A stretch of 64,000 nucleotides of DNA from Thermoplasmata archaeon. GTDB lineage: Archaea; Thermoplasmatota; Thermoplasmata; Lutacidiplasmatales; UBA184. Both the position numbers and the translations under genes were made by a program. The DNA lies in assembly GCA_022750195.1 (NCBI GenBank), contig JAKIWE010000001.1, positions 1,114,672 through 1,178,671 on the forward strand, read 5' to 3'. Each line of letters opens with the position of its first letter. The stretch's first letter is position 1. Shown piece by piece: positions 21,331 through 27,041 of this stretch. The notes under the pieces are model-generated. The model was not told the DNA's origin, ran no database searches, and saw only the letters and a list, made by a program, of their open reading frames with translations.

Positions 21331-22881
21331 GTGCCGTCGGTGGCTAGGGCCCCGCTGATCGTGGGTAGCGGGATCGCCGGTCTCTATGTCGCCCTACGGT
21401 GCCAAGAGGAGGGGCTACGACCGGTCGTGATCACAAAATCCACCATCGAGGAGTCGAACACGCGCTACGCCCAGGGCGGCATCGCGGCGGCCGTGGGCCC
21501 CGACGACTCTCCACGCCTGCACGAGCGCGACACCATTCGGGCGGGGGACGGGCTGGTCGACGTCGGGGCGGCCCGCCTCCTCGCGGAGGAGGCGCCCCTT
21601 CGGATCGCCGACCTGGTTCGGTTCGGGGTCCCTTTCGACACAGTTCACGGCCAGGTCGCCCTCGGCCGGGAGGCGGCCCACTCGCGGGACCGGATCCTGC
21701 ACGCCGGGGGCGACGCGACCGGCCTCCAGATCGAGGAGACCCTGAAGCGGAGGGTCCTCGACGCGGGGGTCCAGATTCGCGAGCGGAGCTCGTTGCGGCG
21801 GCTGGTGCCGAAGGCCGACGGCCACCTGACCGCCGTGATCGGCCGCGCCGACGGCGGAGCCGCGGACGAGCTCGACCCCTCCTGCGTGGTCCTCGCGACC
21901 GGCGGCGCGGGGGCCCTGTACCGGGAGAGCTCGAACCCGTCGATCGCCACGGGGGAGGGCGTCGCGATCGCCGCTCGGGCGGGCGCGTTGATCTGCGACA
22001 TGGAGTTCATCCAGTTCCACCCGACGGCGTTCTACCGCCCGGGGGCCCCAAGGTTCCTGATCACCGAGGCGATCCGGGGCGAAGGCGCGGTCATCCGGAA
22101 CGCCGAGGGGCACCGGTTCCTCCCCCAGTTCCACCCTGACGCCGAGCTTGCCCCCCGCGACGTCGTAGCGCGGGCGATCCACAACGAGCTCGTCCGTTCC
22201 GGCGACCCCTGCGTCTTCCTCGATGCGACGGCCCTTCCCCGCCACCGTCTGTTCGCCCGGTTCCCGACCGTCTGCCGGACGCTGGCTGGCTACGCTCTCG
22301 ACCCGTCCCGAGACCGGATCCCGGTCACCCCGGTGGCGCACTACATGATCGGAGGCGTCGCCAGCGACCATGACGGTCGCAGCACCGTTCCCGGTCTCCT
22401 CGTCTGCGGCGAGGTCGCCGCGACCGGCGTCCACGGGGCGAACCGGTTGGCGAGCAACTCTCTGCTCGAGGGCCTCGTCTTCGGCGAGCGGGTCGTCCGC
22501 CAACTTCTCCACCCGGTCGCGGGAGCCCCCGCCGCCCCGGGGCGTCAAGAGACCGTCGCGTGGTCGAGGGGCGCGGGCGACGTCGGGAGCGCCGAGGACA
22601 GCCGCGCGATCGCCGAACGATTGTGGGTGGATGTGGGGATCACCCGGGATGCGCGAGGTCTCGCCCGGGCTCAGCGGGCGTTCACCGCCTTGGGACGTCG
22701 GCTGGAACCTCGGGACGAGCGGACTCCGCCCTCGGTGCTCGCGAACGCGGCGCTCGTCGCGGCGCTCGTGACCCGGGCGGCGTCGCTCCGTACCGAAAGT
22801 CGGGGAGCCCACTACCGGGCCGACTACCCCCGGCGAGCCGGGGCCTGGAGGCTCCATCTCGGGCTCCGGCTCCGCTCCTGA
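21331..22881 (+). CDS. nadB: L-aspartate oxidase
   Basis: A 516-residue FAD enzyme that oxidises L-aspartate to iminoaspartate, the first step of de novo NAD synthesis. [17 protein letters not shown] is the FAD Rossmann motif. [36 protein letters not shown] and [26 protein letters not shown] follow the NadB/succinate-dehydrogenase flavoprotein pattern; the [13 protein letters not shown] end motif is typical of NadB. A C-terminal helical domain is present. NadA and NadC, its usual partners, are not in this window. GTG start. It is divergent from the nuclease gene. Confidence 0.92.
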
Positions 22882-26782: not shown

Positions 26783-26885
26783 CCCGGCGAGGCGTGACAG
26801 TACGGCGTCGATCTGCAGGAGAGCGGGCGTAGCGCGCCGCGGCTCGACGGTCAGTTCACCACCGCCCGGTCGCCGGCGAGGGGAG

Positions 26886-27003
26886 CGCCGAGGGGGAGAT
26901 TTTCCGCCGGGCCGGGGCGCCCGGTCCCGGTCTTTGAACTCCCGAAGCGTATTCCGCCACGAGCTTTCCAGACTCGCGCCGTACCGGACTGAGCCACCTC
27001 GGC
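26886..27003 (-). tRNA. tRNA-Ser(GGA) interrupted by a T-loop intron
   Basis: The 118-base gene folds as a class II tRNA once 33 bases are removed. The 7-bp acceptor stem is GCCGAGG with CCUCGGC. The three-pair D-stem GCU/GGC is normal for tRNA-Ser. The anticodon loop is CUGGAAA (anticodon GGA at 26967-26969) on a CGAGU/GCUCG stem. A four-pair variable arm follows, GGCG-GAAUA-CGCU. The T-stem is GGGAG/CUCCC with loop UUCAAAU. The discriminator is G73, normal for archaeal tRNA-Ser, and CCA is not encoded. All stems close only when 26900-26932 is spliced out. Confidence 0.9.
26900..26932 (-). other. non-canonical tRNA intron, position 59/60 in the T-loop
   Basis: A 33-nt insert after UUCAAA and before UCUCCC in the T-arm. 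It folds on itself: CCGGG-A-CCGGG pairs with CCCGG-CCCGG around a CGC loop, with one bulged A. Outside this, UUC of the exon can pair with GAA of the intron, leaving a three-base AAU bulge at the 3' junction, a relaxed bulge-helix-bulge. Because AAA occurs at both ends the exact cut is ambiguous by up to three bases. Splicing by archaeal endonuclease is inferred. Confidence 0.8.
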
Positions 27004-27029
27004 ACGCCCAGGCTCGCCGAGAGGGGCCG

Positions 27030-27041
27030 TTGAATAAGCTT
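27030..27041 (-). promoter_or_regulatory. TATA-like promoter of tRNA-Ser
   Basis: Minus strand AAGCTTATTCAA, about 32 bp before the first tRNA base, is the only AT-rich patch in the spacer. Confidence 0.5.

Follow-up and report, generated by a model that had tools for sequence, protein, structure and literature searches.

A tRNA-Ser(GGA) gene with a predicted T-loop intron at position 59/60, one of 14 such genes in a Lutacidiplasmatales genome

The 64,000-nucleotide stretch of archaeal DNA analyzed here (the window) carries a tRNA-Ser(GGA) gene that is almost certainly a working gene, the transcript of which is predicted from its sequence to lose a 33-nt intron from the T loop by splicing, and it is one of 14 tRNA genes in the genome with an intron at this site. 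Taken alone, the intron is an addition to the known introns at position 59/60. The conserved set of 14, found together with a fused splicing endonuclease that lacks the Crenarchaea-specific loop, is the more interesting result. Reviews link non-canonical introns to heterotetrameric or loop-bearing enzymes; here, a euryarchaeal, fused and loop-less enzyme stands beside 14 T-loop introns per genome. The source organism is a soil archaeon that belongs with the Lutacidiplasmatales (Thermoplasmata). Its genome is a metagenome-assembled genome (MAG) of 2.45 Mb in 52 contigs, with estimates of 95.65% completeness and 5.57% contamination. A first-pass annotation of the window had described its genome as Thermoplasmatota-like, and this held up; matches to the interrupted gene come mostly from MAGs named 'Thermoplasmata archaeon'.

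The interrupted gene and its junction

The first-pass annotation had placed a tRNA-Ser(GGA) at 26886-27003 without naming the strand. The coordinates are right, and the gene lies on the minus strand (window 27003-26886). It encodes a class II tRNA-Ser with the anticodon GGA in the loop CUGGAAA, a long variable arm, the acceptor stem GCCGAGG/CCUCGGC, the T stem GGGAG/CUCCC and the discriminator G73 (Table 1). Its T loop is split, UUCAAA being followed by the 33-nt insert and then by a single U ahead of CUCCC. With the insert in place, the gene was called neither by ARAGORN nor by Rfam at gathering thresholds; run on the genome, the Rfam tRNA model gave it 20.4 bits, under the 29-bit cut-off. 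In silico excision of the 33 nt restored one complete, continuous tRNA, called as tRNA-Ser(gga) by ARAGORN, with a T loop identical to that of intron-free orthologues. In agreement with the initial proposal, removal thus restores T arm and acceptor stem from matching exons and leaves G73.

Table 1. Features of the tRNA-Ser(GGA) gene in window positions, and D-loop introns of the same genome as contig:position
Feature	Position	Strand	Basis
5' exon of tRNA-Ser(GGA), 71 nt, tRNA positions 1-59, ending in GGGAG UUCAAA	26933..27003	-	sequence; full-length matches in 27/36 same-genus relatives
33-nt intron at 59/60 (predicted): base 1 in the 5' bulge, hairpin (inner helix), GGAA opposite U54-A57, last two bases in the 3' bulge	26900..26932	-	sequence, alignment, folding
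3' exon, 14 nt: U60, T-stem 3' strand CUCCC, acceptor 3' strand CCUCGGC, G73	26886..26899	-	sequence; in silico splicing
Promoter-like, A/T-rich box AAGCTTATT, starting roughly 30-38 bases ahead of G1	27033..27041	-	A/T-rich stretch shared by related leaders; putative TATA role
D-loop intron, initiator tRNA-Met	C3:98701		read by eye
D-loop intron, tRNA-Arg-GCG	C11:208852		read by eye
D-loop intron, tRNA-Pro-GGG	C11:234252		read by eye
D-loop intron, tRNA-Lys-TTT	C3:13452		read by eye
D-loop intron, tRNA-Leu-TAG	C11:135791		read by eye

Expression would start from the A/T-rich box upstream, which by its sequence fits an archaeal promoter. The leaders of 89 related tRNA-Ser genes (out of 92; three without the anchor were left out) share an A/T-rich box at -39 to -32 from G1 and are otherwise GC-rich, and the window leader carries CCAAGCTTATTC at this position. 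Directly ahead of G1, the leader GGGCGU (27004-27009, minus strand) is strongly conserved, each base reaching 79-100% in the 89 genes, and it is nearly complementary to the trailer after G73 (26881-26885, minus strand), as if extending the acceptor stem. Elsewhere in the window, ARAGORN called a 90-nt tRNA-Arg(gcg) at 21547-21636 on the plus strand. This is probably a false call, which we rejected for two reasons: the stretch is GC-rich and resembles coding sequence, and the genome has an Arg(GCG) tRNA, interrupted in its D loop, at another locus (L067).

The interrupted gene is conserved among relatives. In 36 genomes of the same genus, 27 gave a full-length match that includes the intron, one match was cut by a contig end, and eight genomes were without such a match; further matches of 79-82% to positions 1-73 in these genomes were taken as other serine tRNAs and not read individually. 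A pattern scan of named public genomes returned 92 stretches, mostly from 'Thermoplasmata archaeon' MAGs, with sources that include Candidatus Lutacidiplasma silvani AcS3-62, UBA184, records named Euryarchaeota and four Woesearchaeota. The pattern fixed the T stem, UUCAAA and the acceptor 3' strand, and imposed neither the central-helix partners described below nor U60. Of these stretches, 88 are Ser(GGA) and one is Ser(GCT), and in three Woesearchaeota genes the anticodon lies out of view. Conservation at this level, in 27 of 36 relatives and in 92 public stretches, excludes chance.

In the window copy, AAA closes the 5' exon and AAAA closes the intron. Because of these A-runs on both sides, the cut site is ambiguous in the window sequence alone, as the three-base uncertainty given in the first-pass annotation had indicated, and it was the orthologues that settled it. 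We collected 15 loci from other genera and used 14 of them, leaving out one that is tRNA-Ser(TGA) (G041). Seven of the 14 are intron-free and six have an anticodon-loop intron according to ARAGORN, among them one labelled Ala(ggc) (G039) that was assigned to Ser(GGA) by its exons. The remaining gene (G046, L306) has both an anticodon-loop and a T-loop intron, as read by eye, and so combines two intron states of related lineages. The intron-free orthologues, from seven other genomes, have an unbroken seven-base T loop, UUCAAAU in six and UUCGAAU in one, with A at position 59 in all seven. A junction at 58/59, by which the last intron base would become position 59, would be compatible with the AAA and AAAA ends of the window copy, where sequence alone is indecisive. 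However, the base directly ahead of U60 in the 92 interrupted tRNA-Ser genes is T in 34, G in 26, A in 18 and C in 14; since it varies, it must be intronic if the mature loop is to match the orthologues. Likewise, UUCAAA is retained in all 28 genes that were found by similarity, with no pattern used, and together with the invariant A59 of the intron-free loops this makes a 58/59 junction very improbable. We hence place the intron at 59/60, as originally annotated.

Anatomy of the predicted splice site

Comparison of the sequences confirmed a bulge-helix-bulge (BHB) anatomy of the T-loop insert, with bulges around a short central helix, and so bore out the BHB-type site that had been proposed from the window sequence: the pairing of U54, U55 and C56 is conserved in 92 of 92 genes. 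The T stem serves as outer helix, the central helix is formed by U54-U55-C56-R57 with intronic NGRR, and the inner helix by the hairpin of the intron; the 5' bulge is A58 A59^N1, and the 3' bulge consists of two intron bases and U60. Opposite U54, U55 and C56 stand R, R and G in all 92 interrupted tRNA-Ser genes, the intron interiors of which are 49% purines, and U60 is U in all of them. A57 faces G in 77 genes, U in 14 and A in one. An A.G apposition is thus kept beside the 5' bulge, where it possibly serves as a non-standard pair.

Furthermore, the inner helix is conserved as pairing. In 84 distinct introns, 417 of 504 cells are paired in the proposed register as compared with 165-259 in eight shifted registers, and two-sided changes occur at all six intron-helix pairs. 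None of 1000 permutations reached 417 (mean 338, sd 6.7), a figure that should not be read as a probability, given the relatedness of the 92 copies.

The motif of the window copy is near-strict rather than strict, since A57.G takes the place of one standard pair in its central helix and leaves three, as compared with the four pairs and two 3-nt bulges of the strict hBHBh' motif. Among 40 T-loop introns from three genomes, four standard central pairs are found in 16 and three in 24, and all 40 have the 5' bulge AA^N and five of five T-stem pairs; Asp and Ser-GGA of the window genome are not in this set and were examined separately. Folding of the window genome's T arms divided the tRNAs by base 57. 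For six G57 tRNAs (Asn, Gly-TCC, Gln-CTG, Arg-TCG, Asp and Lys-TTT), which have C opposite G57, the minimum-energy fold coincides exactly with the strict motif. In the eight A57 tRNAs the strict motif is not the best fold, and forcing the central helix to form raises the energy by 0.9 kcal/mol for the window copy and by as much as 3.4 kcal/mol for the others. The best fold of the window T arm consists of the T stem and the intron hairpin with an internal loop, the short central helix being absent (z -2.3) and the pair probability of C56 being 0.15. Folded freely, the whole window precursor gave a best structure that is not a cloverleaf (z -2.0). A single small enzyme would hence meet two sorts of natural substrate, set apart by one apposition, G57-C versus A57.G. 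The intron lengths of Ser(GCT) and Lys came out as 32 and 39 nt in the splicing test and as 31 and 38 nt with fixed acceptor length.

The insert might also mark a decayed tRNA-Ser(GGA) gene into which a hairpin was inserted, the codons UCC and UCU being served by a different tRNA or by a copy that escaped detection, for which the roughly 4% of the MAG that may be missing would leave room. However, a second complete tRNA-Ser(GGA), which had been named from the start as an observation against the splicing reading, was searched for in the genome with the Rfam tRNA model and by similarity, and none was found. The gene is kept with its intron in the same-genus relatives counted above, its splice-site pairing is conserved, and the 5' exon part has a mean identity of 96% in 63 equal-length copies, as compared with 71% for the intron. 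TCC is moreover in use, accounting for 34 of the 118 serine codons in the eight ORFs that we treated as genes, and we regard decay as highly unlikely. Nor do we give much credit to a functional tRNA that retains the insert as an enlarged T loop, an exceedingly remote prospect to us. Such an insert could persist as the compact hairpin into which it folds, but it would break the contact between T loop and D loop, which is established tRNA structure, in 14 essential tRNAs simultaneously. Furthermore, conservation falls on the bases that make up a splice site, and genes for the endonuclease and for RtcB are present. Predicted splicing of a 33-nt intron from a working gene remains the reading that we follow below.

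Interrupted tRNA genes in the genome and in the phylum

A Rfam tRNA search, reading of weak matches and a covariance model together gave 14 tRNAs with a T-loop intron in the window genome, or about one in three of its tRNA genes: Ser-GGA, Ser-CGA, Ser-GCT, Asn, Asp, His, Ala-GGC, Gly-TCC, Gln-CTG, Glu-CTC, Arg-TCG, Arg-TCT, Lys-TTT and Leu-TAG. Introns at 37/38 are present in Tyr, elongator Met, Trp and Leu-TAA, and five further introns lie in D loops (Table 1), so that Lys-TTT and Leu-TAG carry both a D-loop and a T-loop intron. By reading, 21 of 45 distinct tRNAs are interrupted, with one CAT tRNA assumed to be Ile in this tally; they carry 23 introns in total, 14 of them at the T-loop site; a Pro-TGG tRNA was not found in the genome. 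For the 12 tRNAs with a T-loop intron only, ARAGORN gave the expected anticodon in 12 of 12 cases after splicing and missed seven of 12 unspliced. tRNA callers that are blind to T-loop introns hence lose many tRNAs in these genomes. To the eye, some of the five D-loop introns are without a clean outer helix beside the bulge and possibly are relaxed motifs; they may therefore test the enzyme harder than the T-loop introns do.

The same 14 isotypes are interrupted at the T-loop site in all three members of the genus examined (the window genome, G028 and G018). For the phylum, we used a covariance model trained on 12 of the 14 T-loop tRNAs of the window genome and two others, so that its scores for these training tRNAs are not independent. 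The model also matches intron-free tRNAs with lower scores, none of which reached the threshold of E 1e-12 in control searches. At this threshold, 54 of 292 Thermoplasmatota genomes gave at least one match; as 13 candidates were scored per genome, counts per genome are lower bounds. In the window's family, the 14 genomes listed have at least 5-11 matches each, and we read this as 14 of 14 because the list of match-free genomes begins at 'same class'. One family of the same class has one match each where there is any (14 genomes), with at least three of its genomes without a match. In another class, 13 genomes of one family have 2-8 matches each, again lower bounds. Twelve matches outside the window's family were examined and all 12 proved to be T-loop introns, 13-31 nt long, with the same motif and pairing scheme; the remaining matches were read in part only. 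Lys-TTT with both a D-loop and a T-loop intron was also found in three other genomes (G037, G041 and G054).

T-loop introns also occur in a lineage of DPANN archaea, as three Woesearchaeota loci (L087, L110, L137) have a serine-type T arm and acceptor with a T-loop insert, and their 5' part seems interrupted, too, when read by eye. A record titled 'bacterium isolate clean3188' (DAIDCO010000019.1, L168) contains a Lutacidiplasma-type interrupted tRNA-Ser and probably is a mislabelled archaeal MAG. In the window genome itself, the terminal 47 nt of tRNA-Ile(GAT) occur twice, 6.3 kb apart (C11:469441-469514 and C11:475775-475848; L073 and L074), and the 249-nt stretch around the one copy is identical to that around the other. 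Both resemble attachment-site remnants left by integrated elements.

The splicing endonuclease, the proposed pathway and known systems

One locus with a splicing-endonuclease catalytic domain, the only one found, and one RtcB gene are present in the window genome. The endonuclease has about 354 amino acids (start codon assumed) with two tRNA_int_endo_N and two tRNA_int_endo stretches, and its best PDB matches are M. kandleri 5X89, followed by A. fulgidus α'2 over residues 29-336. Judged by its domain order, the protein is of the fused α'2 layout with two N-C units in one chain; the first unit has probably lost catalysis, as read from the alignment, and the protein presumably is a dimer. The family is present in 55 of 61 relatives. 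The Crenarchaea-specific loop, for which the insertion in engineered 3P1Y served as reference, is absent from all Thermoplasmatota enzymes aligned (23 of 23 and 18 of 18, together 41 of 41), both from genomes that yielded T-loop introns and from genomes that did not. These alignments comprise 23 of 31 endonuclease loci and then 18 further genes, of which three (G102, G106, G149) are divergent and poorly aligned. Ahead of the first conserved helix of the catalytic unit, the window-genome enzyme thus is without the loop that marks the loop-bearing (αβ)2 type.

In the precursor, the T stem would form the outer helix, U54-U55-C56, with R57 where able, would pair with NGRR near the intron 3' end, and the hairpin would provide the inner helix. 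The fused α'2-type endonuclease would cut after the second base of each three-base bulge, that is, at A58 A59^N and between two intron bases and U60 (^U60), and RtcB would join the exons to the T loop UUCAAAU. Position 59/60 can be regarded as the T-arm twin of 37/38, since both lie behind base six of a loop of seven bases that is closed by a stem of five pairs, and we infer that it suits the fused enzyme because it copies this geometry. As Table 1 of PMC6379350 gives a narrow specificity for the α'2 enzymes of A. fulgidus and T. acidophilum, acceptance of T-loop sites by the enzyme here is an assumption. We may go further and speculate, with even odds for and against, that the Lutacidiplasmatales T loop is a second canonical intron site and that a loop-less α'2 enzyme allowed introns to settle there in about one tRNA gene out of three. 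This would be possible because 59/60 copies the 37/38 geometry and because the near-universal UUCR offers a strand for the central helix. If so, diversity of intron positions would need no CSL- or ASL-type loop, contrary to the proposed rule of co-evolution between loop acquisition and intron diversity (PMC12397907). With 14 T-loop introns beside a loop-less enzyme, the idea that loop acquisition drives intron diversity becomes directly testable.

Position 59/60 is among the non-canonical sites listed in PMC4090602, according to which Euryarchaeota with α4 or α'2 enzymes have less than 10% of their tRNA genes interrupted, at the canonical position only. Efficient removal of relaxed introns is ascribed only to (αβ)2 and ε2 enzymes, via loop lysines, in PMC6379350, which also reports that A. 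fulgidus α'2 can cut a relaxed 37/38 intron in a full precursor. Homodimers are said to cut BHL-like motifs as well, with T-arm sites mentioned (PMC8707768). Three thermophilic euryarchaeal methanogens with non-canonical introns were known by 2011 (PMC3218864), and tRNAscan-SE 2.0 gave 673 non-canonical introns in 217 archaeal genomes (PMC8450103). The word 'intron' is absent from the main text of the paper naming Lutacidiplasmatales, as is 'introns' from a Thermoplasmatota survey of 2025. The scale and enzyme context of the 59/60 introns described here were not found in print, with supplements, tRNA databases and most subscription journals outside the search; given this scope, isolated cases of a 59/60 intron may already have been recorded for cultured Thermoplasmatota.

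In Crenarchaeota, above all Thermoproteales, the same 59/60 site, BHB-type anatomy and many interrupted tRNAs, some with two introns, are described, with (αβ)2 enzymes that have the Crenarchaea-specific loop and many sites per genome (PMC4090602). Here, in contrast, a single T-loop site predominates, holding 14 of the 23 introns, and the loop-less enzyme is a fused chain. In Thermoproteales, introns have reportedly been transposed from one tRNA to another within a genome. Two Asgard lineages, Atabeyarchaeia and Freyarchaeia, likewise are soil archaea with many non-canonical tRNA introns (PMC11291895); they belong to a different phylum and have 92-95% of their tRNA genes interrupted as compared with 21 of 45 here, and the likeness is one of introns. 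With the α'2 enzymes of A. fulgidus (1R0V/2GJW) and T. acidophilum (2OHC), the window-genome enzyme shares two fused units, a C-terminal catalytic unit and the lack of a Crenarchaea-specific loop. Unlike these narrow enzymes, it would serve 14 T-loop and five D-loop introns. The ε2 enzyme of ARMAN-2 (4FZ2), also a single fused chain from an archaeon with non-canonical introns, has three units (αN-α-βC) and a specific loop, which lies where the Crenarchaea-specific loop does according to PMC6379350 (for the enzyme, also PMC12397907), whereas the protein here has a two-unit layout. An ε2 endonuclease, first suggested by a 381-codon frame, was rejected for this difference in layout. A CSL-like reading of the stretch KDGRSGRAV was dropped as well, since M. 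jannaschii 1A79 is equally long there to within one residue.
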